Source: Gemmatimonadales bacterium
Lineage (GTDB): Bacteria > Gemmatimonadota > Gemmatimonadetes > Gemmatimonadales > GWC2-71-9
Assembly (NCBI GenBank): GCA_036279355.1
Contig: DASUJH010000013.1
Coordinates: 1 to 64,000 of the forward strand
Length of the DNA: 64,000 nucleotides
Direction: 5' to 3'
Both the position numbers and the translations under genes were made by a program. The first letter of the stretch is position 1, and each line of letters opens with the position of its first letter. This document shows positions 12,454 to 50,683 of the stretch, in pieces. The notes beneath the pieces were generated by a model. It was not told the DNA's origin and did not search any database. It saw nothing but the letters and a program-made list of their open reading frames with translations.

Positions 12454-13355
12454 AGACCCCCTCAGCCCCCCGCCCGATCGCTCCCACCGACCGCGTGAGC
12501 GACGTGCTCGCGCGCGACGACACGCTGGTCGAGGTGTTCGCCCGCCACTCACCCCATTTCGCCAAGCTCCGGATTCCCGCGATGCGGCGCGTCATGGCGC
12601 GCCTCGTCACGGTCGAGCAGGCGGCCCGGATGGCCCACGTGAGCGCCGCGGGACTGGCGGCGGAGCTGAACGCGGCGCTCGGGATCGGCTCGACGCCGGC
12701 CGGGCGGAATCCGGCCGCACCCCCAACTCCGCTCGACGGCTCGGACTCCGGGGCACGCGCAGCGAGCGCCGAGCCCCCGGAGCGTCGCCACCCGGGCGGG
12801 CGGCGCGTCGTCGTGGTCGACGTGCGGGAAGATCTTCGCGCCGGCCGCGAGCCGTTCGCGACGATCATGCGAGCGGTGCGCGCTCTGGGCCCGGAGGAGG
12901 TACTCCGGGTGCGCGCGATCTTCGAGCCGGTACCGCTTTACGCCGTACTCGCGAAGCACGGCCTCGTCCACGAGGCCGGCGCCGATGATGCTGGGGATTG
13001 GTCGGTCTGGTTCTGGCGCCCGGCAAAGAACAATGCGCGCCCGGGCGGCGCCGAGGCGGAGCCCGCGCCGGCAGCCGCTGTCGGCGAGCCGCCTCCGCGC
13101 GCTCCGACCACGCCAGGCCCGCAGGAGCTACCCGGCGACATGGTCTGGCTCGACGTCCGCAACCTCGAGCCGCCCCAACCGATGCTCCACACGCTCACCG
13201 CCCTCGAGACCCTTCCCGCAGGTCACACGCTCGTCCAGGTGAACGCGCGCGTGCCGCATTTCCTGCTTCCCATTCTGGTGGAGCGCGGGTTCGACTTCGA
13301 GGTGGATGAGACCCGGCAGGACCGCGTGCTCGTGCGGATCCGCCGCGCCACGTGA
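12450..13355 (+). CDS. DUF1858 plus two DUF2249 domains
   Basis: The 301-residue protein joins a DUF1858 domain (about residues 12-75, TDRVSDVLARDDTLVEVFAR and HFAKLRIPAMRRVMAR) to two DUF2249 domains. The first lies around VVVVDVREDLRAGREPFATI, the second at the C-terminus around VWLDVRNLEPPQPMLHTL and LVQVNARVPHFLLPIL. DUF2249 has a TusA-like fold; such proteins occur beside denitrification and Hcp-type genes, role unproven. The linkers are rich in Pro, Ala and Gly. The ATG at 12450 overlaps the stop of the membrane protein. Duplication of DUF2249 within one chain, with a third copy next door, is notable. Confidence 0.82.
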   Translation: MKTPSAPRPIAPTDRVSDVLARDDTLVEVFARHSPHFAKLRIPAMRRVMARLVTVEQAARMAHVSAAGLAAELNAALGIGSTPAGRNPAAPPTPLDGSDSGARAASAEPPERRHPGGRRVVVVDVREDLRAGREPFATIMRAVRALGPEEVLRVRAIFEPVPLYAVLAKHGLVHEAGADDAGDWSVWFWRPAKNNARPGGAEAEPAPAAAVGEPPPRAPTTPGPQELPGDMVWLDVRNLEPPQPMLHTLTALETLPAGHTLVQVNARVPHFLLPILVERGFDFEVDETRQDRVLVRIRRAT

Positions 13356-38616: not shown

Positions 38617-38712
38617 CCTTCTCCGCGTCGTTATTTTTCCCTCACCCCTCAGGGAGCCTTGTCAGGCGAGCGGCCGCCGTGTCGCTCGCCTCTTCGTCGG
38701 CGGGAGCAGGCT

Positions 38713-41700
38713 GTGGATCCCAACATATTCGAGACGGCCAACGCGGGCTTCGCGCAAGCGATGTACGAGGAATTTCTGCGCGACCCCAACAGCGTGGGCG
38801 AGGATTGGCGCGCGCTGTTCGAGAGCGGGGTGGTGGGCGAGGCGGACGGGCGGCCGGAGGCGGACGGGCGGACGGGCGGGGAGGGGGTTGGGCGCGCCGG
38901 CGGCCACGCGAGCCCGGCAGCGGACGAGGCCGCGCCGGTAGCGGCACCGATCGACTCGGCGCCTGTCCGGCCGGCTGTCCCCGCCCCCGCCGACGTCCCG
39001 CACGGCGCCTCGGTCATCAAGGGCCCCGCCGCCCGTCTCGTCGCGAATATGAACGAGAGCCTGGGCGTCCCGACGGCGACCACCTTCCGCACGCTGCCGG
39101 TCGCCACACTCGAGGCGCGGCGCAAAGAGCTGAACGCGCGGCTCACGACGGCGGGACGGACCGAGAAGCTCTCGTTCACCCATCTCATCGCTTTCGCCCT
39201 GGTGCAGGCGGCCAAGCGGCACCCGGTGATGGGGCACTCGCTCCTCGTGCACGACGCCACGCCCTACCGGGTCCAGCCCGAAGGCATCGCCCTGGGCCTC
39301 GCGGTCGACGTGCAGCGGAAGGACGGGAGCCGCGGACTCGTGGTCCCCGTCATCAAGCGCGCGGAGACGATGGACTTCTCCGCCTTCTACACTGCCTACG
39401 AGGCGCTGGTCGACAAGGCGCGCACGAACAAGCTCCTGCCCGACGACTTCGCCGGCGCCACCATGTCGCTCACCAACCCCGGCGGACTCGGCACCGTCAT
39501 GTCGGTGCCGCGACTCATGGCGGGCCAGGGGAGCATCATCGCGGTCGGCGCCATCGGCTACCCGCCCGAATTCGCCGCGGCCGACGCCGAGCGGATGCGC
39601 GAGCTCGGCGTGAGCAAGGTGATGACGGTGAGCAGCACCTACGATCACCGCGTCATCCAGGGTGCGGAATCGGGTGCGTTCCTGGCCACGCTCGACCACC
39701 TGCTTCAGGGCGAAGACGGCTTCTACGAGCTGGTCGCCGAGAGCCTGCACCTGGCACCGGCCAGCTACCAGCTCGCCCCGGCGGCGACACAGCTTCCGAA
39801 GCAGCCCGAGACCGTCGCGCCGGACATGCTGTATCACGTCGCCGCGGCGATGGCGCTGGTGAAGGCGTTCCGCACCCACGGCCATCTTGCGGCGCGAGTC
39901 GATCCGCTGGGCACCGAGCCGCTCGGCGATCCGGCGCTCGACCCGTTGCCGCTCGGACTCACGCCCGAGGTGATGGCCGCGATTCCATCCAATGTGCTGC
40001 GGGTCTACGTGCCCGGCCGCACCCTGGCCGAGTCGTACCCGTACCTGCAGGCGACGTACTGCGGCACCATGGCGTACCAGGTCGAACACATCGCGAGCCA
40101 CGAGGAACGGGTGTGGCTGCGCGAGAAGATAGAAAGCGGCGCGTTTCGCACGCCGCTCACGCCCGAGCAGAAGCTCCGGCTCTTGACCCGGCTCACCCGG
40201 GTGGAGGCGCTCGAGCGCTTTCTCCACAAGGCGTACCTGGGCCAGAAGCGCTTCTCCATCGAGGGCGTGGACATGCTGGTGCCGATGCTCGACACGACGT
40301 TCGAGCTGGCGGCGGCGGACGGCGCGCGCGAGGTGGTGATCGGCATGGCGCATCGCGGGCGGCTCAACGTGCTGGCGCACACGATCGGGCGGCCCTACGA
40401 GACGATCTTCGCGGAGTTCGAGGGCGGGCGGCACGTCGAGAGCGGCCAGCTCACGCCCGAGGGCGGCACCGGCGACGTGAAGTATCACCACGGCGCGGAA
40501 GGCGTCTATGCGCTGGGCAACGGCAAGTCCGTCGCAGTGAAGCTCACGCCCAACCCGAGTCACCTGGAGTATGTGGACCCGGTGGTGAGCGGCCGGGCGC
40601 GCGCGCGCCAGACCACGCGCAAGGGCCGCCGCGCGCATCACGACTCGGCGGTGGCGCTGCCGGTGATGATCCACGGCGACGCCGCGTTCGCCGGACAGGG
40701 CGTGGTGGCCGAGACGTTCAACCTGAGTGCGCTCAGGGGCTATGGCACCGGCGGCGCGCTGCACATCATCACCAACAACCAGGTGGGCTTCACCACCGAT
40801 ATGCAGGACGCGCGCTCGACCCGTTACGCGAGCGATCTCGCCAAGGGCTTCGACGTGCCGATCATCCACGTCAACTCGGACGATGCCGAGGCCTGCCTCG
40901 CCGCGGTACGGCTCGCGATGGCGTACCGGGAGATGTTCCGGCGCGATGCGTTGATCGACCTGGTGGGCTACCGCCGCCACGGGCACAACGAGGGTGACGA
41001 GCCGGCCTACACCCAGCCCCCGATGTACGAGTTGATCAAGAACCTGCCGACGGTGCGGGCCCGGTACGCCGAGCAGCTCGAGGCCGAGGGCGTCACCACG
41101 GTCGCCGATGCGGAGAGGCAATACGAGGAAGCGTACCAGCGGCTGGTCGACGCGCAGCAGCACTTCCGCGCGAGCCTGGGCCCCGGCACGGTGCCCGAGC
41201 CCAAGAAACAGCAGAACCCGGGTCAGGAGGTATCGACCGCGGTGCCGGCCGAGACGCTGACGGCGCTCAACGAACAACTGCTCACCTGGCCGGAGGGGTT
41301 CACCGTAAATCCCAAGCTCAAGCGCCAGCTCGATCGGCGGCGCGCGGCGACGGGCCCCGAGGGCAGGATCGATTGGGCTCACGCGGAAGCGCTGGCCCTC
41401 GCATCACTCCTGGTGGAAGGCGTGCCGGTGCGGCTCACCGGCCAGGATACCGAGCGCGGCACGTTCAGCCAGCGGCACCTCGTGCTGCACGACGCGGAAA
41501 CCGGACAGACGTACGCCCCGATCCAGCGGCTCTCCGGCGCGCTCGCGCCGATCGAGCTGCACAACAGCCCGCTCTCGGAGCTCGCGACACTGGGCTTTGA
41601 ATACGGCTACAGCGCGTCGGCGCACGAGGCGCTGGTGCTCTGGGAAGCGCAGTTCGGCGACTTCATCAACGGCGGCCAAGTGATCGTGGACCAGTTCCTG

Positions 41701-42429
41701 GTGGCGGGGCTCTCGAAGTGGGGACTCACCACACGGCTCACGCTGCTCCTGCCGCACGGCTACGAGGGTCAAGGCCCGGAACATTCGAGCGCCCGCCTCG
41801 AGCGTTTCCTGCAGCTCGCGGCCGAAGGCAACATCCGCGTCGCCAACCCGAGCACGCCGGCGCAGTACTTCCACCTGCTCCGCCGCCAGGCCCGCCGCAC
41901 GCGCCAGCGCCCGCTCATCGTGATGACGCCGAAGAGTCTTCTGCGCCTGCCGGCGGCCGCCTCACGCCTGAGTGATCTGGCCGAGGGCGCCTGGCACCCG
42001 GTGCTGGATGATCCGTGGGCGGCGCCCAGGGCCGATCGGATCCGCCGTCTCGTCCTCTGCACCGGGAAGATCTACTACGACCTGCTGGCCGAGGCCGAGC
42101 AGCTCGACGAGGCAGATCGCCCGGCGATCGTGCGTGTCGAGCAACTGTACTCGTTCCCCTGGTCCGAGATGCGGGTGGTGCTGGCGCGCTACGCGAACGT
42201 GGACGAGATGGTCTGGGTGCAGGAAGAGCCGCGCAACATGGGCGCGTGGGCGTACCTCAAGTCGAAGCTCGCCGAGCTGATGCCGGCGCGCGCGGAGCTG
42301 GGGTACGTGGGCCGGCCGGAGCGGGCGAGTCCCGCCGAAGGGTATCCGGCGGCGCACGCCGCGGAGCAGAGCCGTATTGTGTCTGAGGGAGTGCGCGGCG
42401 CCGGACGCCCGGCGCCGCTCAGCGCGTGA
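38713..42429 (+). CDS. kgd: Multifunctional 2-oxoglutarate dehydrogenase (fused E2-like and E1 domains, Kgd type)
   Basis: The 1238-residue protein is a one-chain enzyme as in mycobacterial Kgd: E1-type N-terminus (QAMYEEFLRDPNSVGEDWRA), an Ala/Pro/Gly linker, an E2 succinyltransferase-like domain, then E1. The E2-like domain has AARLVANMNESLGVPTATT and the acyl-transfer His in STYDHRVIQGAESG. The E1 domain has MAHRGRLNVLAHTIG and GDAAFAGQGVVAETFNLSAL for thiamine. No lipoyl domain is present, so it must borrow a lipoylated E2, as Kgd does. It makes succinyl-CoA in the TCA cycle. The GTG at 38713, 6 bases after GGGAG, is chosen. Confidence 0.93.
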   Translation: MDPNIFETANAGFAQAMYEEFLRDPNSVGEDWRALFESGVVGEADGRPEADGRTGGEGVGRAGGHASPAADEAAPVAAPIDSAPVRPAVPAPADVPHGASVIKGPAARLVANMNESLGVPTATTFRTLPVATLEARRKELNARLTTAGRTEKLSFTHLIAFALVQAAKRHPVMGHSLLVHDATPYRVQPEGIALGLAVDVQRKDGSRGLVVPVIKRAETMDFSAFYTAYEALVDKARTNKLLPDDFAGATMSLTNPGGLGTVMSVPRLMAGQGSIIAVGAIGYPPEFAAADAERMRELGVSKVMTVSSTYDHRVIQGAESGAFLATLDHLLQGEDGFYELVAESLHLAPASYQLAPAATQLPKQPETVAPDMLYHVAAAMALVKAFRTHGHLAARVDPLGTEPLGDPALDPLPLGLTPEVMAAIPSNVLRVYVPGRTLAESYPYLQATYCGTMAYQVEHIASHEERVWLREKIESGAFRTPLTPEQKLRLLTRLTRVEALERFLHKAYLGQKRFSIEGVDMLVPMLDTTFELAAADGAREVVIGMAHRGRLNVLAHTIGRPYETIFAEFEGGRHVESGQLTPEGGTGDVKYHHGAEGVYALGNGKSVAVKLTPNPSHLEYVDPVVSGRARARQTTRKGRRAHHDSAVALPVMIHGDAAFAGQGVVAETFNLSALRGYGTGGALHIITNNQVGFTTDMQDARSTRYASDLAKGFDVPIIHVNSDDAEACLAAVRLAMAYREMFRRDALIDLVGYRRHGHNEGDEPAYTQPPMYELIKNLPTVRARYAEQLEAEGVTTVADAERQYEEAYQRLVDAQQHFRASLGPGTVPEPKKQQNPGQEVSTAVPAETLTALNEQLLTWPEGFTVNPKLKRQLDRRRAATGPEGRIDWAHAEALALASLLVEGVPVRLTGQDTERGTFSQRHLVLHDAETGQTYAPIQRLSGALAPIELHNSPLSELATLGFEYGYSASAHEALVLWEAQFGDFINGGQVIVDQFLVAGLSKWGLTTRLTLLLPHGYEGQGPEHSSARLERFLQLAAEGNIRVANPSTPAQYFHLLRRQARRTRQRPLIVMTPKSLLRLPAAASRLSDLAEGAWHPVLDDPWAAPRADRIRRLVLCTGKIYYDLLAEAEQLDEADRPAIVRVEQLYSFPWSEMRVVLARYANVDEMVWVQEEPRNMGAWAYLKSKLAELMPARAELGYVGRPERASPAEGYPAAHAAEQSRIVSEGVRGAGRPAPLSA

Positions 42430-42444: not shown

Positions 42445-42765
42445 CTACTGCCCCACCGCCTGCATGGGCCGCTCGGACGCCGAGCGGATCATGTCCTTGA
42501 GCGGTTCCGAGAGGTGCTCGCCGTAGTGCAACAAAAAGACGCCGCGAGCGCGCTTCATCATCAGAAACGCGAGCAGCGGCGTGTCCGCCTTGGCCGCATT
42601 GCACGCGCGGCAAGCCAGGACGAGGTTGTCCGGGCGATCATAGGCGGTCTGCCCGCGGCGCGGGCGGACGTGGTCGAGCGTGATGGTGTCGGGGCTCGTG
42701 CTCGCTCCGCAATAGGCGCACACCGGTCCATGCTGCTCAAGCAGCCAGTCGCGGTGGGACTGCAT
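42445..42765 (-). CDS. HNH endonuclease
   Basis: The 106-residue protein is a small HNH nuclease: CAYCG near residue 16, then the core TITLDHVRPRRGQTAYDRPD with His in DHV, then NLVLACRACNAAK with the second CxxC. The zinc-bound HNH fold cuts DNA, but many such small proteins have no known role. The tail (MMKRARGVFLLHYGEHLSEP) is unique. The ATG at 42765 is used; the longer frame to 42936 runs into the divergent promoter region. It converges on kgd after 15 bases. Confidence 0.85.
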   Translation of the reverse strand: MQSHRDWLLEQHGPVCAYCGASTSPDTITLDHVRPRRGQTAYDRPDNLVLACRACNAAKADTPLLAFLMMKRARGVFLLHYGEHLSEPLKDMIRSASERPMQAVGQ

Positions 42766-42867
42766 GGAACGCCCAGGGGAGCGGCGGAACGAGGGTGGGG
42801 GAGCGGCTCGGGAGGAACGATTTCTGGATCTACGTGCCACAAAGGTTTCCGTAAGGGTTGAACATAG

Positions 42868-42884
42868 GGTCCGCGATGCGGACC
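42868..42884. promoter_or_regulatory. Perfect 7-bp dyad between divergent HNH and NTF2-like genes
   Basis: GGTCCGC-GAT-GCGGACC lies in the 162-base gap between the two divergent starts. Its size suits a repressor site. A TATATT box reading leftward (42909-42904) is close by. Role is inferred from position only. Confidence 0.35.
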
Positions 42885-42927
42885 GCTTCTCAAAACAACG
42901 CAGGAATATAGCAAGATCGGCGCCAAA

Positions 42928-43476
42928 ATGGCACACCGGCCCCTGCTCCCCCTTGCCGCCGCGCTCAGCCTGCTCGCCGCCGCACCGGCCTCATGCCCTG
43001 GACCCGAGCGCCCGGCTGACCCGCTCGCCCGCCGCCAGATCGAGGCGGTGATGGAGCGGTACGTCTCGGCCTACCGGCGGGACGATGCCGACGCGATGGC
43101 GGCGCTCTACGACGCGAACGGCATTCTGTTGCCGCCGGGGCGAGATCTGATCCGGGGCCGGGCGGCGATCCGGCGTTTCTGGAGCCAGGGCATGGAGCAG
43201 GGCATCGAGATGCAGAGCGTCGTCATCGGGGCGGGCGCGAGTACCGGGTATGTGGTGGGCCGATACTACATCCCCGCCGACGATGAGGACGAGGCCGAGT
43301 CGGGCAAGTACGTAATCACCCTCGATCGCCCGGTCGGCGGGAGCTGGGCGGTGGCGGCCGACATCTGGAACGACGACGGGGACGATTCGACCGCGGACGA
43401 ATCGGCGGACAGCACGGCGGCTGTGGCGGCGCGAGCGGTGTCGTACTCCTCGCGCCGGATGCGCCTTCCAAAGTGA
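42928..43476 (+). CDS. Secreted SnoaL/DUF4440-like (NTF2-fold) protein
   Basis: The 182-residue protein has a signal peptide (HRPLLPLAAALSLLAAAPAS) with a Cys just after it, so lipidation is possible. An NTF2-like fold follows (IEAVMERYVSAYRRDDADAM, AALYDANGILLPPG, GRAAIRRFWSQGMEQGIEMQ, GSWAVAADIWNDDG). This fold serves small-molecule binding or turnover; no catalytic set can be named. The tail is rich in Asp, Ala and Ser and ends basic. It is divergent from the HNH gene and stands alone. Confidence 0.82.
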   Translation: MAHRPLLPLAAALSLLAAAPASCPGPERPADPLARRQIEAVMERYVSAYRRDDADAMAALYDANGILLPPGRDLIRGRAAIRRFWSQGMEQGIEMQSVVIGAGASTGYVVGRYYIPADDEDEAESGKYVITLDRPVGGSWAVAADIWNDDGDDSTADESADSTAAVAARAVSYSSRRMRLPK

Positions 43477-43516: not shown

Positions 43517-43963
43517 TCATCGCCGGGTCACCATGGCCCACAATCCCGCGTAGAGAACCACCGTCGCCACCCATCCCACCGTGCTCCAGCGCAGGAAGAC
43601 CCGGCGGAGTGCGGCCTCGTCCGCCGGGTCCAGGCGCTCCATGCGCCACTGGTCGGGCAGCAGGACCAGGAGCCACGCCAGCGTGCTCACCACGAGCGCG
43701 CCGATGCCCTGCTCGAGCCACGGCGTGTCGAGCACCGAGTAGCCGCCGGCGCGCACCAGCAGGACGCCCGAAACGACGAGCAGCGTGCCGCCGCCCAACG
43801 TCAATACGAGATCGGCCCAGAGAATGGCGCGGGCCACGACCCGGAAAGGTACCGAGCGCCGCCAGCGATAGAGCAGCGCGGCCCAGAGGCCGGTCACGGT
43901 GACATTGCCCAGGAGCAAGACGGCGCCCGCGACGTGCAGCGCGCGGAGCACGCCCCTATCCAT
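43517..43963 (-). CDS. DUF2269-like integral membrane protein
   Basis: The 148-residue protein has four membrane segments (LRALHVAGAVLLLGNVTVTG, ILWADLVLTLGGGTLLVVSG, IGALVVSTLAWLLVLLP, WSTVGWVATVVLYAGLWAMV) and the DUF2269 opening HVAGAVLLLGN. The family is predicted membrane protein of unknown role. Its start at 43963 overlaps the acyltransferase stop by 8 bases, so it is the last gene of the carotenoid operon. Confidence 0.8.
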   Translation of the reverse strand: MDRGVLRALHVAGAVLLLGNVTVTGLWAALLYRWRRSVPFRVVARAILWADLVLTLGGGTLLVVSGVLLVRAGGYSVLDTPWLEQGIGALVVSTLAWLLVLLPDQWRMERLDPADEAALRRVFLRWSTVGWVATVVLYAGLWAMVTRR

Positions 43964-44744
43964 TCCGCGCCTCGAACGGCCCCCGCAGCAGGCCGACAGC
44001 ATGGCGGAAACGGTCCATGCGCTTGTTCACGGAAAGCCTGCCCTGCACCAGCAGGCGGAAGTCGCTCAACGATTCGGCGGCGAGCCGGGCGTCGAGCCGG
44101 TCGACCGCGCCGGCCACCGCGCGCTCCAGCTCCTCGGTGAGCGCGCGGCGGTCGGTGCCCTGCCCCGCCGCCACGATCCACGGCCGGCCCGTGAGCGCGA
44201 ACGCTTCGGGCAGTTGCTCGCCGAGATATCCATAGCGGAATGCAACCGGACAGATCCGGACCGGCGCGCCGTGCGCGAGCACCAGGTGCGCGGCGCCGCG
44301 CTCGAAACGCGCCGGCCGCTCGCGCTCGGGGCGGCGCGCACCGCTCGGGAAGATCCAGAGGACGCTCCCGGGGCGAAGCTCGGCATCGGCGGCACGGAGG
44401 TCGTCGTACGCGGCGCGCGGCGGGTCGCGGCGGATCCGGAGCACTCCCACGCGCCGAAACGGCGGGTAACGCGCGAGCTGCCCGGCGTCCATGAGAAGGC
44501 GCCCGTCCCACCCGGCGGCCCGCGAAAGGAGGAACGCGAAAAAGCCGTCCCACCAGTTCGTGTGATTCGCGACGCAGACCGTGGGGACCGCGCGATCCCA
44601 GCCGGCCGGGTTCTCGAGCGCGGCCCAGCGCACGGTGGTGAAGTAACGGGAAAACTGCCCGCGAACGTAGCGCGCAAATGCGCGGAGCGCGAGCGGCCTC
44701 GGCGGCCGATACGACGCGCGCGCCTCAACCTGGGCCCGATTCAG
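43956..44744 (-). CDS. PlsC-type acyltransferase, possible CTG start
   Basis: The protein has the acyltransferase motifs VCVANHTNWWDGFFAFLL (His and Asp as catalytic pair) and VLWIFPSGARRPERERP, with GGRLL-like and PVRICPVAF segments. It moves fatty acyl groups, perhaps to glycerol-phosphate or to a carotenoid glycoside. In frame there is no ATG, and the first GTG (44633) gives 225 residues. A CTG at 44744 overlaps the crtB stop (CTGA) with GGAG about 8 bases ahead and gives 262 residues, including the usual family N-terminal helix. The start is unsure; the reading frame is clear. It sits between crtB and the DUF2269 gene. Confidence 0.82.
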   Translation of the reverse strand: MNRAQVEARASYRPPRPLALRAFARYVRGQFSRYFTTVRWAALENPAGWDRAVPTVCVANHTNWWDGFFAFLLSRAAGWDGRLLMDAGQLARYPPFRRVGVLRIRRDPPRAAYDDLRAADAELRPGSVLWIFPSGARRPERERPARFERGAAHLVLAHGAPVRICPVAFRYGYLGEQLPEAFALTGRPWIVAAGQGTDRRALTEELERAVAGAVDRLDARLAAESLSDFRLLVQGRLSVNKRMDRFRHAVGLLRGPFEARNG

Positions 44745-45634
44745 GCGGTGCGCTCCAGGAACGCGGTGAGCGGCCGGCGCTCGCTCCAAACGGCGCGGCC
44801 CAGGAGAAGGAGCTTGCGGGGCGACGAAACGTACGCGCGGGTACGGAAGACGTCGTAGCCCAGGCGCTCGATCGCATCGAGAATGCCGGCATACGTGGTC
44901 TGCAAGAGCCGCACGGTGAGGCGGGAGCCATCGTTTGGAAAGAGCGGAATGACCCGGTCGCCCTCGGCAAACCAGCGGCGCGAGCGGGCGACCTGGAACC
45001 GCATGAATCGGCTGAACGCGGGTGTCACTCGCCGGGCCTCGAGCGCCGCGCGATCGATCCCGAACGCCGCCAGCTCGTCGGCCGGGAGGTAGAGGCGGCC
45101 GGAATCGAGATCCTCGCCCACGTCGCGCAGCACATTGGTGAGCTGCATCGCCACCCCGAGCTGTACGCCGGGCTGGCGAAAGCGGCGCGGCGCGCCGAGC
45201 ACCGGACCGAGCATGAGGCCGACGCCGCCGGCCACGAGGCGGCAGTAGCGGTGGAGCGCGGCAAAGTCGGGGAACGCGACCGGCTCCAGGTCGAGGGCGA
45301 CTCCCTGGAGCAGGTCGAGCATGGGCGCAAGCGGCACGCGGAATCGGCGCAGCGTATCGGCGAGTGCCAGCCAGCGCGGATTGGCGGGGGCGCGGCCGGC
45401 ATGCATCGCGCGCACCTGGCGGCCGAGGGCGTCGAGCGCCGCGCGCACCTCGGCGGCGGAGAGGTCGCCACGCTCGTCGACCAGGTTGTCGGCGTGGCGG
45501 CAGTAGTCGTAGAGCGCGAAGACGGCGCGGCGCTTGGGCGCGGGCAGGAACCGGCTCGCGAAGTAGAAGCTCTTCGCCCACTCGGCCGTGATCTGCTCGG
45601 CCTCCGCATAGCTCTCCACGAGCGCCACGCTCAC
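44741..45634 (-). CDS. crtB: Phytoene synthase CrtB (squalene/phytoene synthase family)
   Basis: The 297-residue enzyme joins two prenyl diphosphates. Both Asp-rich motifs are present: YCRHADNLVDE and NVLRDVGEDLDSGRLYLP. SFYFASRFLPAPKR and QTTYAGILDAIERLGYDVF are family segments. Coupling to a desaturase makes phytoene the likely product, though diapophytoene is possible. The GTG at 45634 overlaps the crtI stop (GTGA). Confidence 0.94.
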   Translation of the reverse strand: MSVALVESYAEAEQITAEWAKSFYFASRFLPAPKRRAVFALYDYCRHADNLVDERGDLSAAEVRAALDALGRQVRAMHAGRAPANPRWLALADTLRRFRVPLAPMLDLLQGVALDLEPVAFPDFAALHRYCRLVAGGVGLMLGPVLGAPRRFRQPGVQLGVAMQLTNVLRDVGEDLDSGRLYLPADELAAFGIDRAALEARRVTPAFSRFMRFQVARSRRWFAEGDRVIPLFPNDGSRLTVRLLQTTYAGILDAIERLGYDVFRTRAYVSSPRKLLLLGRAVWSERRPLTAFLERTA

Positions 45635-47118
45635 TGCCACACCGCCCGTTCCGCCATCACCCGATCCACCGTGCACCGCGCGGAGATGAGCACCATCGGC
45701 AGACCGCATCCCGGATGGGTGCTCTGGCCGACGAAGTAGAGGTTCTGAAGGTTGGGATGACGGTTGTGCGGGCGGAAATAGCCGATCTGCCTGAGCCCAT
45801 GCGCGAGGCCGAATGCCTCGCCGCGCAGATTGCCGAAGGCGGCCGTGAAATCGGCCGGCGTGAAGCGGCGACGGGTGACGATGTTCGCGCGCAGATCGGT
45901 GAGGCCAAACGCCTCGAGCCGTGCGAGGGTGCGCTCCTCGACCTTCGGACCCTCTGTCGTCCAATCGATCGGCCGCGCGGGAGATTGACTCGGTGCCACC
46001 ACCAGCACAAAGAGGATTTCGCAACCCGGCGGGGCCGCGCCGGGATCGGTGCGGGTCGGGGCGCAGACGTAGAGCGGCGGCTCCTCGGGCATGCGGTGCC
46101 GGTGGAAGATGTCCTCGCACGCTTCGCGCATGGCGGCCGGAACGATCAGGTTGTGATGAAGCAACGCCGGATAGGTGCGGCGCACGCCGAGGTTGAGCAG
46201 CACCACCGAGCAGCTGAATTCCTTCTTCGCGATGCCGGGATACGGCTCGCCCAGGAGCCGCTCGTAGACGTACGGCAGGTCGGCGTTCGCGACGACGAGG
46301 TCCGCGGCGAGCCGGGTGCCGTCGTCGAGCACTACGCCCGTGACCCGACGTCCGGATCGCTCGAGCCGCGCCACGCCCCGGCCGAACTCGAACCCGGCGC
46401 CGAGCTCGCGCCCGAGGCGCTCCAGCGCGCGGGGGAGCGCGTGCATGCCGCCCATCGGGTAATAGAGGCCGCCCGCGATTTCGGTGTAGGGCAGCAGGCT
46501 GTAGATGCCAAGCGATTCGTAGGGCGAGAGCCCGAGATAGAGGGACTGGAAGGTGAGCGCCTGCACCAGCCGCTCGTCACGCACGTAGCGGCCCACCAGG
46601 CGGCGCAGGTCGCCGAGCGCGCCGGTGCCGAGGAGCATGGCGCCGTGCTCCAGGGTGAACATGGCGCGCGCCGTGTGCATGTTGCGCGAAACGAAGGCGA
46701 GGCCGCTCCGGTACAGCTCGCCGCTCCTGGCGAGAAAGCGCCGGAGCCCCGCACCCGCGCCGGGCTCCAGGCGCTCCATGTTCTCGCCCAGCGTGTCGAG
46801 CGCGCTGGTCATCTCGAGCGTGGAACCGTCGGGATAGTGGATGCGATAGTTGGGGTCGAGCCTCACCAACGAGACGTAGTCCTCGAGCCGCCGGCCGGTG
46901 TCCTCGAAGAGCTGCTGCCAGTACTCCAGCATGAGCACGAACGAGGGACCGGTGTCAAAGCGGAAGCCGTGGGATTCCCAGAGGCCGGCGCGGCCGCCGG
47001 GCACGGCGTGGCGCTCCAGCACGGTGACCGAAAAGTCCTGGTGCGCGAGGCGCGCCGCGGCCGCGAGCCCGCCGATGCCGGCACCGATGACGATGGCGGT
47101 GGGTCGAGCGGCGGTCAC
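45631..47118 (-). CDS. crtI: Phytoene desaturase CrtI
   Basis: The 495-residue protein starts with the FAD site AIVIGAGIGGLAAAARLAHQ, continues with GGRAGLWESHGFRFDTGPS and ends with the CrtI signature YFVGQSTHPGCGLPMVLISA. It introduces double bases into phytoene to give coloured carotene; the number of steps cannot be told. The GTG at 47118 overlaps the carH stop (GTGA), so the pigment genes are translated right after their regulator. Confidence 0.95.
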   Translation of the reverse strand: MTAARPTAIVIGAGIGGLAAAARLAHQDFSVTVLERHAVPGGRAGLWESHGFRFDTGPSFVLMLEYWQQLFEDTGRRLEDYVSLVRLDPNYRIHYPDGSTLEMTSALDTLGENMERLEPGAGAGLRRFLARSGELYRSGLAFVSRNMHTARAMFTLEHGAMLLGTGALGDLRRLVGRYVRDERLVQALTFQSLYLGLSPYESLGIYSLLPYTEIAGGLYYPMGGMHALPRALERLGRELGAGFEFGRGVARLERSGRRVTGVVLDDGTRLAADLVVANADLPYVYERLLGEPYPGIAKKEFSCSVVLLNLGVRRTYPALLHHNLIVPAAMREACEDIFHRHRMPEEPPLYVCAPTRTDPGAAPPGCEILFVLVVAPSQSPARPIDWTTEGPKVEERTLARLEAFGLTDLRANIVTRRRFTPADFTAAFGNLRGEAFGLAHGLRQIGYFRPHNRHPNLQNLYFVGQSTHPGCGLPMVLISARCTVDRVMAERAVWQ

Positions 47119-48023
47119 CCCGAGGCGGGCTCCCGAGCGGCCGCAGCGGCGCGATCGCGCGCGCGGAACGAGGCGGAAAAGGCCGGAGGCCCGATGCGAT
47201 AGCCGTAGGTGCGGAGCAGCGCCGAGTGCGCATCGACGCCAGCGCCGCCGGCCACGGCCGCGGTGCCCGGCGGCAGTCGCGGTGGCAGAGCCACGAGCGC
47301 TTCGAGGCTGGCCTCGACGATGCCGCTCGTGCTCCCGCTCAGCGCCACCGCAGCCGGCCGGAGCTTCCACGCGGCCTCGACCATGTCGTCGAGCGGCAAG
47401 TCCGGCCCTAGGTACTGCACGCGCCAGCCCTCGGCCTGCACCAGCGTCAGCGCGCTCAGAAAGCCCCACTCGTGGCGCTCGCCGGGAAGGCCGGCCGCGA
47501 GCGCGAGCGGACCATCGGCGCGGCCGGCACGAAGCCCGGCCTTGAGCGCGTGGATCACTACCTCGCTCGCCAAGTGCTCGGCGGAAACCGGGAGCGTTCC
47601 CGCGGCCCAGCGGTCGCCGACGGCGCAGGCAAGCGGCGGCACGACCTCCTCGGCAAACGCGCGGAGGCCGCGGAGTGAGAGCTGCTGGGCGATGAGCGCC
47701 TCGAGCCGCTCGCGGTCGAGCGCCGCTACGGCGTCGAGCAGCGCGCCATGCGCCGAACCGTCGGGCTCGCGGCCGCCGGCGCGGGCGAGCACCTCGTCGC
47801 GCGGGCGCAAAGCCAGCTCGCCGATGCGGTCGCCCGCGGTGGTGAGGCGGGCAAAGGCGCGGAGCAGTGTGACCTGATCGCCGGTGTAGGCCCGGTAGCC
47901 GTTCGGCATCCGGTGCGGGCGGATGACCTGGTATCGGCGCTCCCAGGCGCGGAGCCGGGCCGGGGTGAGGCCGGTGAGCCGCGCGACCTCGTTGATCTCA
48001 TAGGTGCGTTCCGGCTGGATCAC
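47115..48023 (-). CDS. carH: CarH-like MerR regulator with B12 photoreceptor domain
   Basis: The 302-residue protein has an N-terminal MerR helix-turn-helix (YEINEVARLTGLTPARLRAW, ERRYQVIRPHRMPNGYRAY). A B12-binding C-terminal half follows. Trp139, then nine residues, then Glu149-His150 forms the Wx9EH motif of CarH adenosylcobalamin photoreceptors, and ERHEWG (182-187) supplies the lower-axial His184. CarH represses carotenoid genes in the dark and lets go when light breaks the cobalamin bond. It is directly upstream of crtI and crtB, which fits. The GTG at 48023 overlaps the pyrF stop, so it is read from the pyrF promoter. Confidence 0.93.
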   Translation of the reverse strand: MIQPERTYEINEVARLTGLTPARLRAWERRYQVIRPHRMPNGYRAYTGDQVTLLRAFARLTTAGDRIGELALRPRDEVLARAGGREPDGSAHGALLDAVAALDRERLEALIAQQLSLRGLRAFAEEVVPPLACAVGDRWAAGTLPVSAEHLASEVVIHALKAGLRAGRADGPLALAAGLPGERHEWGFLSALTLVQAEGWRVQYLGPDLPLDDMVEAAWKLRPAAVALSGSTSGIVEASLEALVALPPRLPPGTAAVAGGAGVDAHSALLRTYGYRIGPPAFSASFRARDRAAAAAREPASG

Positions 48024-48817
48024 GGCTGGGGTCGGGAGGCGGGGCGCTCGCCGGGGCCACGCGCGCCACGCTCGCGCGCGGCGAGCCCGCGCTCGATCGC
48101 GTCGACGTAGCGTTCGACCTGCGCGATCGGGTCCGCATTCCGGTAAATCGAGCGGCCGACGACGAGATAATCGGCGCCCGCCGCAATCGCGTCGTCTGGC
48201 GCGCCCACGCGGCGCTGGTCGTGGGTGGCCTCGCCGGCGAGCCGGATGCCGGGTGTGACGATGGTGGTGCGCGCAGGCACCGCGGCGCGGAGCCGGGCGA
48301 CCTCTTCGGCGGAGGCGATGACGCCGTCGGCGCCGAGCGCCACGAGCGAACGGGTGACGGAAACGACGTGATCGTCGAGCGTGGTGCCGTCCGGCAGGCC
48401 GTACATCTCGCGCGCGTCGTCGCCCGTAAGGCTCGTGAGGACGGTGACTGCGAGGATCTCGAGCGCGCTGCCGCCGCGTCCGGACACGGCGGCCTCGACG
48501 ATGGCGCGGTTGCCGTGGACGGTGACGAACCGCACGCCGAGCCGCGCCACCGCGGCGATCGACTGCCGCACGGTGTTGGGCACGTCGAAGATCTTGAGGT
48601 CGAGAAAGACCTGCTTGCCCTGCTCGATGAGTGCCGGAACCAGCGCGAAGCCGCCCGCGGCGAGCGAAATCCAGCCCACCTTGTAGAACGAGGCCGCGGC
48701 GCCGAGGTGCCGAACGAGCGCCTCGTTTTCGGACGGGGTGTCGAGGTCGAGGGCGACGATGAGCCGGTCTCGAGCGGCGACGGCGGCGGGAGCGGGCGGA
48801 AGGCGCGGCTCGGTCAC
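48020..48817 (-). CDS. pyrF: Orotidine-5'-phosphate decarboxylase
   Basis: The 265-residue enzyme makes UMP in pyrimidine synthesis. Motifs are LIVALDLDTPSE, then the catalytic VFLDLKIFDVPNTVRQS (Lys-Asp pair), VTVHGNRAIVEAA, then IVTPGIRLAGEATHDQRRV and DYLVVGRSIYRN. All are intact. It leads the operon that contains carH and the carotenoid genes, which is an odd partner. The GTG at 48817 is 7 bases after a TAGATT box, so its message may be leaderless. Confidence 0.95.
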   Translation of the reverse strand: MTEPRLPPAPAAVAARDRLIVALDLDTPSENEALVRHLGAAASFYKVGWISLAAGGFALVPALIEQGKQVFLDLKIFDVPNTVRQSIAAVARLGVRFVTVHGNRAIVEAAVSGRGGSALEILAVTVLTSLTGDDAREMYGLPDGTTLDDHVVSVTRSLVALGADGVIASAEEVARLRAAVPARTTIVTPGIRLAGEATHDQRRVGAPDDAIAAGADYLVVGRSIYRNADPIAQVERYVDAIERGLAARERGARGPGERPASRPQP

Positions 48818-48824
48818 GGACGGC

Positions 48825-48852
48825 AATCTATGTATCAGGAAGGGGCGTGCAA
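48825..48852 (-). promoter_or_regulatory. Promoter of the pyrF-carH-crtI-crtB operon, likely leaderless
   Basis: Reading leftward, TTGCAC (48852-48847) and TAGATT (48830-48825) are 16 bases apart. The GTG start of pyrF follows TAGATT by 7 bases, which puts the transcription start at or next to the start codon. Confidence 0.65.
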
Positions 48853-48923
48853 GCGATCGGCAGGTTAATTTGCAGCACATCGCGAGGGTACATGCCGCAC
48901 GGGGGCACATGCCGCAGGGGCGC

Positions 48924-49493
48924 ATGCCGGTGACGCTTGGACACGCGCTCGGATTGACCGCGCTCGGGATCGTTGCGGCGGGCGCGGCGTTCGCTGTGGC
49001 ACGTCCGCGGAGTGTCACGATCGTCGACGGCGACAAGCAAGCGCTCCTCTTCACGACGCCGGCGCTCGATTCGGCGGTGGCCGCGACGCGGGCCGAGGCG
49101 GATTCGCTCCGCGGGGTGTTGCGCGGGCTGAGCGACTCGCTGCGGCTGCTCGTCGAGCCGGTGGTGGTGCAGCGGCTCGTGGTGGTCGCGTTCGGTCCGG
49201 CCCACTCCGACGCGAGCCGCGCATTCGCATCGGGGCTGCCGGCCGCCCGCGGCGTCGCGCAGCGGGAAGGGTTCCAGTTTTTCTCTCGCGTGGGTGGCCG
49301 GGATCTGCTCTATGATCCGCAGACGCGGCTCCATTTCGAGCTGCCGGTGGCGGACCGCTCGATCGGCTACGTCATCGTTGGCCCGGGCCACCTGCCGCGC
49401 GTAATGCGAGGGCCGCCGACCACCGACGACCTCCGCGCGGCGCTCAGGGCGTATCGGCAAGAGTACACGGCGGGAACGCTCCGCCGCGCGTGA
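48924..49493 (+). CDS. Membrane-anchored protein of unknown function
   Basis: The 189-residue protein has one N-terminal hydrophobic segment (LGHALGLTALGIVAAGAAFA), a short helical coiled-coil part (VAATRAEADSLRGVLRGLSD) and a folded C-terminal part (VVVAFGPAHSDASRAFASGL, FQFFSRVGGRDLLYDPQ, YVIVGPGHLPRVMRG). I do not recognise the family. The ATG at 48924 follows AGGGG; an ATG at 48909 is also possible. It is divergent from pyrF and overlaps the next start, leading a small operon. Confidence 0.65.
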   Translation: MPVTLGHALGLTALGIVAAGAAFAVARPRSVTIVDGDKQALLFTTPALDSAVAATRAEADSLRGVLRGLSDSLRLLVEPVVVQRLVVVAFGPAHSDASRAFASGLPAARGVAQREGFQFFSRVGGRDLLYDPQTRLHFELPVADRSIGYVIVGPGHLPRVMRGPPTTDDLRAALRAYRQEYTAGTLRRA

Positions 49494-49504
49494 GGATGCG
49501 AAAC

Positions 49505-49753
49505 ATGTTGTGCCAGCGGTGCGGCCAACGCGAAGCCGAAGTATTCCTGGCCCAGCAGCAGGGGGACGGATTCTACACCGAGGACCTCTGCACCACCTGC
49601 GCCCGGCGCGATCAGGGGCTGGTGCTCGGCGCCCTGCTGCAGGCCGGACGGCCGGGCGCGGCGCCGCTCAGCGACGAGCAGGAGCAGGCGCTCCGCCGCG
49701 CCATCGATCGCGCGGCGCCGCCCGCCGATCCCGACTCCACCACGGAGGCTTGA
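49505..49753 (+). CDS. Small zinc-ribbon protein, McsA/UvrB-like N-terminus
   Basis: The 82-residue protein has two CxxC pairs (LCQRCGQREAEV and EDLCTTCARRDQ), spaced like the first zinc ribbon of McsA-type proteins. A helical tail follows (SDEQEQALRRAIDRA). It should bind one zinc; its partner is unknown. The ATG at 49505 has GAGG ahead; a GTG at 49490 overlapping the upstream stop is an alternative. Its stop overlaps the next ATG (TGATG). Confidence 0.7.
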   Translation: MLCQRCGQREAEVFLAQQQGDGFYTEDLCTTCARRDQGLVLGALLQAGRPGAAPLSDEQEQALRRAIDRAAPPADPDSTTEA

Positions 49754-49929
49754 TGTCGAAGCGTGAAGACCAGCGCATCGCCGCGCTGGCCCGGAAGAAC
49801 GCCAAGAAGATCGTTCCCCCCAAGCAGGACCATGCCGCGCAATTCGATTCCACGCTGCGGCAACGCCCCGCCGAGCAGGACGCGGAGACCACCCGGCTCT
49901 TCAAGGAAATGAAGCGGCGGGAATTCTGA
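49753..49929 (+). CDS. 58-residue basic protein of unknown function
   Basis: The short, charged protein (KREDQRIAALARKNAKKIVP, ETTRLFKEMKRREF) has no recognised domain and looks helical. It is coupled to the zinc-ribbon gene before it by a TGATG overlap, so it is probably real. The DUF1499 gene follows after 25 bases. Confidence 0.6.
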   Translation: MSKREDQRIAALARKNAKKIVPPKQDHAAQFDSTLRQRPAEQDAETTRLFKEMKRREF

Positions 49930-49954
49930 CACTCCGACCGAGGTCCGATTACCC

Positions 49955-50683
49955 ATGAGACTCCGCTGGCTCGTGGTACTGCTCGCGGCGCTCGCCGCGC
50001 TGCTGCTGCTCATCTCCGGTCCGGGGGCGCGGCTCGGCCTCTGGCGGTTCGGCACCGGCTTTTCGCTCATGCGCTGGGGCGCGTACGTCGGGATCGCCGC
50101 CGGCCTTCTTGCCGTGGCGCTGCTGCTCCTGCCGGCGCGCGGCGGGCCTCGGCTCACCGGGCCGCTTGTCGCCGCGGTCATCCTGGGCGGCATCGCCGCG
50201 TTCGTGCCATGGCGCTGGCTGCGCGTGGCCCGCAGCGTCCCTCCCATTCACGACATCACGACCGACACGGCGCAGCCGCCCGAGTTCGTGGCAGTGCTGC
50301 CGCTTCGCGCCAGTGCGCCGAACCCCGCCGCGTACGGGGGCGAGGAAATCGCCGCGCAACAGCACCAGGCCTATCCCGACATTCGCCCGCTCGAGTTGAG
50401 CGCGCCGCCCGGCGCAGCCTTCGATCGCGCGCTCGCCGCCGCGCGGGCGGCGGGCTGGGACGTCGTGGCCACGGACTCGGCTGCCGGCCGCATCGAGGCC
50501 ACCGCCACCACCGGCTGGTTCGGCTTCAAGGATGACGTCGTGGTGCGCGTGCGCCCCGACTCGGGCGGAAGTCGGGTGGACGTGCGGTCGGTGTCGCGCG
50601 TAGGCAAGAGCGACGTCGGCACCAACGCCCGCCGGATACGCCAGTATCTCGGGAGGCTCGCCGGCAGCAAATCCGCCGCGTGA
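49955..50683 (+). CDS. Membrane protein with a C-terminal DUF1499 domain
   Basis: The 242-residue protein has three membrane segments (LVVLLAALAALLLLISG, WGAYVGIAAGLLAVALLLLP, LTGPLVAAVILGGIAAFV). A DUF1499 domain follows (PPIHDITTDTAQPPEFVAVL, DRALAAARAAGWDVVATD, IEATATTGWFGFKDDVVVRV, VDVRSVSRVGKSDVGTNARR). The family is common and of unknown function, with the domain likely outside the cytosol. ATG at 49955. It ends 64 bases before transketolase, which appears to have its own promoter. Confidence 0.85.
   Translation: MRLRWLVVLLAALAALLLLISGPGARLGLWRFGTGFSLMRWGAYVGIAAGLLAVALLLLPARGGPRLTGPLVAAVILGGIAAFVPWRWLRVARSVPPIHDITTDTAQPPEFVAVLPLRASAPNPAAYGGEEIAAQQHQAYPDIRPLELSAPPGAAFDRALAAARAAGWDVVATDSAAGRIEATATTGWFGFKDDVVVRVRPDSGGSRVDVRSVSRVGKSDVGTNARRIRQYLGRLAGSKSAA

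Follow-up and report, generated by a model that had tools for sequence, protein, structure and literature searches.

A predicted class I LitR/CarH photoreceptor in the carotenoid gene run of a Gemmatimonadales bacterium

Introduction

The photoreceptors of the class I LitR/CarH family combine a MerR-type helix-turn-helix (HTH), a four-helix bundle and a Rossmann B12-binding domain, and operons that unite such a protein with carotenoid genes are already known from several phyla. In Thermus thermophilus the gene for CarH (LitR; TtCarH) is situated in the carotenoid region of pTT27, where it diverges from crtB and where a gene for a PlsC-type acyltransferase also lies nearby. TtCarH carries the adenosyl-pocket motif Wx9EH, an ExHxxG motif and an Arg176-Asp201 salt-bridge pair; in its light state His132 is the upper cobalt ligand, which makes the coordination bis-His. 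A CarH-like, light-responsive cobalamin domain is also present in CtMerR of Chloracidobacterium thermophilum (8jbs), which has an Arg at the His132 position but is still reported to monomerise in light. In the carB operon of the myxobacteria, carH is transcribed together with crt genes, and an intact Trp in Wx9EH separates CarH from the B12-independent CarA, which lacks it (PMC9304148). The known CarH operator consists of tandem 11-bp repeats with TnnACA; mapped operators vary and their design is plastic, although those of the myxobacteria still bear the TnnACA repeats (PMC9304148).

We found no study of CarH in the Gemmatimonadota in the open-access literature, although this does not show that there is none, and no relevant paper that links CarH to pyrF. 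Here, we analyze a stretch of 64,000 nucleotides (the window; positions 1 to 64,000 of contig DASUJH010000013.1, assembly GCA_036279355.1) from a Gemmatimonadales bacterium, for which an original prediction had proposed a light- and B12-sensing CarH inside an operon with pyrF, crtI, crtB, an acyltransferase gene and a DUF2269 gene. We compare this locus to the systems described above and to its counterparts in related genomes.

Results

Gene Content and Conservation of the Locus

The six predicted genes are all present on the minus strand, with the place and family that had been proposed for each of them (open reading frames, Pfam and NCBIfam). The first gene of the run is pyrF, encoding orotidine-5'-phosphate decarboxylase (48020..48817; PF00215 at 152.8 bits and NF001273 at 219.7 bits, both above cutoff). 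It is followed by carH (47115..48023; Pfam MerR, B12-binding_2 and B12-binding), crtI of the phytoene desaturase family (45631..47118; TIGR02734 at 483 bits, cutoff 238), the phytoene synthase-like crtB (44741..45634; SQS_PSY PF00494 at 231 bits, 37% identical to Thermus CrtB), a PlsC-type acyltransferase gene (43956..44744; PF01553 at 48 bits) and lastly a DUF2269 membrane protein gene (43517..43963; PF10027 at 53 bits). Direct reading of the junctions reveals that overlaps of 4-8 bases, stop to next start, join all six genes. The shared bases are GTGA at the pyrF/carH, carH/crtI and crtI/crtB junctions, so that the proposed coupling of carH to crtI by overlap is borne out; at the crtB/acyltransferase junction they are CTGA, which implies a probable CTG start for the acyltransferase. 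The acyltransferase/DUF2269 junction is ATGGATAG, and for DUF2269 a start at 43963 is more likely than the one at 44002 implied by the longest open reading frame. A gap of 106 bp (48818..48923) separates pyrF from a divergent gene to which no known family is assigned; this gap is the only clear intergenic promoter candidate for the run, which is presumably co-transcribed. Beyond the other end of the run lie an HNH endonuclease gene (42445-42936, minus strand), which also weakly matches part of the IscB model, and a single long gene of sucA type (38659-42429, plus strand), named by eye from its sequence as a 2-oxoglutarate dehydrogenase/decarboxylase whose N-terminal part is acyltransferase-like. 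In relatives, too, the HNH gene has sucA and the crt operon as its neighbors.

Among 102 genomes from the family of the window genome, 11 (the window genome included) have a carH orthologue at E 1e-40 or better, and the ten full-length orthologues form one clade (support 100/100). The order common to the relatives is a divergent tkt (transketolase), then carH-crtI-crtB-acyltransferase-DUF2269, then HNH and sucA, with some losses; carH directly adjoins crt genes in at least seven of the ten, and in one genome (G032) crtI has moved to another contig. The proposed association with crtI, crtB, the acyltransferase and DUF2269 is hence conserved, with identities to the window of 56-67% for carH and 65-74% for crtB. 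In contrast to the window, none of these loci has pyrF, their carH diverges from tkt, and two of them have lost the crt genes. One of these two genomes (G012, 98% complete) has no member of the squalene/phytoene synthase family and no CrtI orthologue genome-wide, and keeps carH beside tkt (L049:10218-11111), followed by a gene with a rhodanese domain (Pfam); the other (G031, 78% complete) presents the same picture, with carH beside tkt (L050:5049-5894) and neither phytoene synthase nor CrtI. The carH of G012 is either a decaying sensor or one with a target outside carotenoid synthesis.

In the relatives the acyltransferase keeps its place shortly after crtB, and DUF2269 remains next to it. In G090 and G011 one gene intervenes between crtB and the acyltransferase (L056:9997-11823 and L060:4505-6340, respectively), which in G090 encodes a dynamin-family GTPase (Pfam) and in G011 is similar. 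The NHx4D motif of the acyltransferase (NHTNWWD in the window) is invariant in all five sequences compared, and the window protein is 32% identical, over 172 columns, to the PlsC-type acyltransferase of the Thermus crt cluster. Since the Thermus carotenoid cluster also has such a gene, the proposed action of the enzyme on the pigment is plausible by analogy. There is nonetheless an appreciable, if lesser, chance that the role of the acyltransferase and DUF2269 is in membrane lipids instead, the enzyme being a member of the general PlsC family in a run that has no glycosyltransferase or hydroxylase to provide an acyl acceptor on the pigment; its persistence behind crtB and the PlsC-type gene in the carH-crtB region of Thermus argue for the pigment.

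The CarH Protein

The window CarH has 302 residues, of which residues 7-251 align with TtCarH (3whp and 5c8d, E 8e-24 and 9e-24) at about 35% identity, with the same order of domains. Its AlphaFold2 model, built with five sequences, has a pLDDT of 84.6 and a pTM of 0.64, and the best PDB matches of this model are all TtCarH structures. The modeled cobalamin domain alone superposes on that of TtCarH at about 3 Å; the superpositions of the full-length model are poor (rmsd above 12 Å), as a difference in the hinge to the DNA-binding domain would lead one to expect. In the alignment, the equivalents of TtCarH W131, E141, H142, E175, R176, H177, G180, G192 and D201 are all kept, among them the Arg176-Asp201 salt-bridge pair. 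The Wx9EH motif (W139, E149 and H150; 47574..47609, minus strand) is intact, including the Trp that distinguishes CarH from CarA, and the lower-axial His184 lies in E182-R-H184-E-W-G187 (47463..47480, minus strand), an ExHxxG motif as described earlier (PMC9304148). The published light signature of GxxW, EH, GxxH and GxxxP (PMC11796333) is represented by GDRW, EH, GERH and GPDLP, and the recognition helix, RAWERRY, conforms to RxWERRY. With regard to the longer pattern D/ExHx2G/P-x41-SxT/V-x22-27-GG, the window protein has ExHxxG, the 41-residue spacing, the S and the GG; the third residue of SxT/V is Ser. The original prediction had called the motifs exact, which is correct for Wx9EH and the lower-axial His, but it had missed this Ser and the Ala that follows the Trp.

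The best-scoring model for the protein is the NCBIfam CarH equivalog NF052513, at 121.9 bits against a cutoff of 400 bits, a difference which indicates that the window CarH is a divergent relative. A second CarH was sought in the same genome, where the sole other match was to an N-terminal MerR domain at 24 bits. The cofactor could be made by the bacterium itself; its genome has genes for making AdoCbl, with a PduO-type adenosyltransferase (208.9 bits), and also a cobalamin riboswitch (66.4 bits). Taken from its sequence and its model, the window protein is best read as a class I LitR/CarH photoreceptor, and sequence, predicted fold and cofactor supply all support the identity and the AdoCbl-dependent photosensing that had been proposed for it.

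The Missing Upper His

In the window CarH the Wx9EH Trp is followed by an Ala, where TtCarH has His132; in the alignment of the 11 orthologues (window included) this position is occupied by Ala in eight, Ser in two, Val in one and His in none. The switch of these proteins therefore cannot be the bis-His one of TtCarH. An upper His was not treated as defining for class I LitR/CarH proteins, because CtMerR, with its Arg, responds to light; CtMerR differs from the window protein in having Arg rather than Ala there, and it is more distant in sequence. We consider it likely that the window CarH senses light and ends in a ligand state other than bis-His.

One could argue that the window CarH is a B12 sensor and a poor light switch, in which AdoCbl sets DNA binding and light releases it poorly without the upper His. 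The substitutions in 11 of 11 orthologues suit such a protein, as does the behavior of the H132A mutant of TtCarH, most of which stayed tetrameric in light (PMC10442372); moreover, Gemmatimonadota in culture depend on cobalamin, which the phylum probably obtains by salvage (PMC10581226). However, the window CarH has kept every motif of the published light signature, its carotenoid context fits light, CtMerR monomerises without the upper His, and an earlier report, as cited in PMC10442372, has the full-length H132A mutant dissociating. On balance we regard the B12 sensor as unlikely and favor the photoreceptor.

The Gemmatimonadota commonly have another CarH-like type, which is divergent (identity about 31-44%; L013-L030). 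It has His at the 132 position in several cases, and mostly no crt genes in the short flanks covered.

Operator, Promoter and Regulatory Target

A CarH site had been suggested near 48820-48900, which the sequence does not support. There is no TnnACA repeat there, and a scan for pairs of TnnACA 11 bp apart found none upstream of pyrF, of the window carH or of its orthologues in nine relatives, whereas at the Thermus carH promoter it recovered the three tandem repeats. A genome-wide search of 11 genomes for three such repeats, with one mismatch, yielded 6 matches against 8 for the reversed control, hence no enrichment. The one perfect three-repeat match, in G012, falls in a gap with no carotenoid genes close by. 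A de novo search for shared upstream motifs (spaced words) gave nothing above shuffled sequences, and scans with simple consensus patterns found neither a sigma-70 promoter nor a terminator, which says little in DNA of 70% G+C. The wing of the DNA-binding domain reads PNGYRAY in the window CarH versus PGGHRLY in TtCarH. In G032 an inverted repeat (CTTGTTCAA, 17 bases, TTGAACAAG) lies close upstream of carH (L051, about 13010-13080); it is a possible operator and was not seen in the other genomes.

The lack of both the TnnACA tandem and any conserved upstream motif would be explained if the CarH of this clade acted on promoters elsewhere, for example on the adjacent tkt promoter in the relatives, rather than on its own operon; its adjacency to crt would then be partly historical, and the retention of carH beside tkt without phytoene synthase in G012 and G031 agrees with this. 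Against such a target stand the known plasticity of CarH operators (PMC9304148), the continued company of crt genes and carH in most relatives, the intrusion of pyrF and three other genes between carH and tkt in the window genome, and the control-level result of the genome-wide search. We judge such action elsewhere to be improbable. Since mapped operators vary, the TnnACA operator was not taken as defining for the CarH family. Regulation of its own operon remains our preferred reading.

The pyrF Gene

The original prediction had placed emphasis on the link to pyrF, an emphasis that comparison weakens. Nine relatives are covered on the upstream side of carH, and pyrF is there in none of them, nor is it beside carH in the other loci compared; the link is found in the window genome alone, and transketolase occupies the position in the relatives. 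Between carH and tkt the window has pyrF and three further genes (48924-50683), the last of which encodes a DUF1499 protein. As this arrangement is specific to the window genome, pyrF at the head of the run is a lineage-specific addition, an event of one lineage. An error of assembly in this draft genome, which the single occurrence might evoke, is most improbable, given that stop and start overlap in a perfect GTGA, within a contig of 75 kb, and that this pyrF is the only copy found in a 97.5%-complete genome. It is 36-42% identical to the pyrF genes of the family, which sit on other contigs or elsewhere. Recent horizontal transfer was considered and not retained: in the tree a long branch sets pyrF outside the clade formed by the family's own pyrF genes, but an AU test does not reject its placement within that clade (p 0.123), and its position in the tree is thus suggestive, not significant. 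Being first in the run is no demonstration that pyrF and the pigment share a function; pyrF is probably a passive co-transcribed passenger, which may now supply the promoter of the run.

Discussion

We think it probable, although well short of certain, that this locus encodes a class I LitR/CarH photoreceptor within its own carotenoid operon, where it would be a dark repressor released by light, and that pyrF was inserted at the head of this operon. In the dark, AdoCbl-loaded CarH would oligomerise and repress the transcription of carH-crtI-crtB-acyltransferase-DUF2269. Under green or blue light the Co-C bond would break, after which the oligomer or its complex with DNA would come apart and carotenoid would be made. 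Given the Ala at the His132 position, the light state would be a cobalamin that is not bis-His, perhaps in a water-coordinated state such as that described for CtMerR. When compared with the described systems, the window resembles Thermus in its domains, its cofactor motifs and its neighboring crtB and acyltransferase genes, but its carH is co-directional with crtI-crtB, and it lacks the His132 equivalent and the TnnACA tandem. The myxobacterial carB operon provides a precedent for carH being transcribed with crt genes, yet its operators bear the repeats that the window's upstream region lacks.

This CarH-carotenoid operon in a little-studied lineage is real and mostly ordinary. A bolder formulation would have the CarH of the clade be a photoswitch without upper His, with a different DNA code and a regulon that extends beyond carotenoids, including pyrimidine synthesis in one lineage and a sensor kept after carotenoid loss in others; we accord it rather little credence. 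The link to pyrF alone carries little weight, unless pyrF proves to be light-regulated. Three features merit the attention of specialists: His132 is absent throughout the clade, the canonical operator is missing, and carH occurs without carotenoid genes. Genomes of this last kind would reveal which other targets such a sensor may have, and the Gemmatimonadota clade, whose CarH proteins naturally lack the upper His, is useful for asking if release by light requires bis-His ligation.
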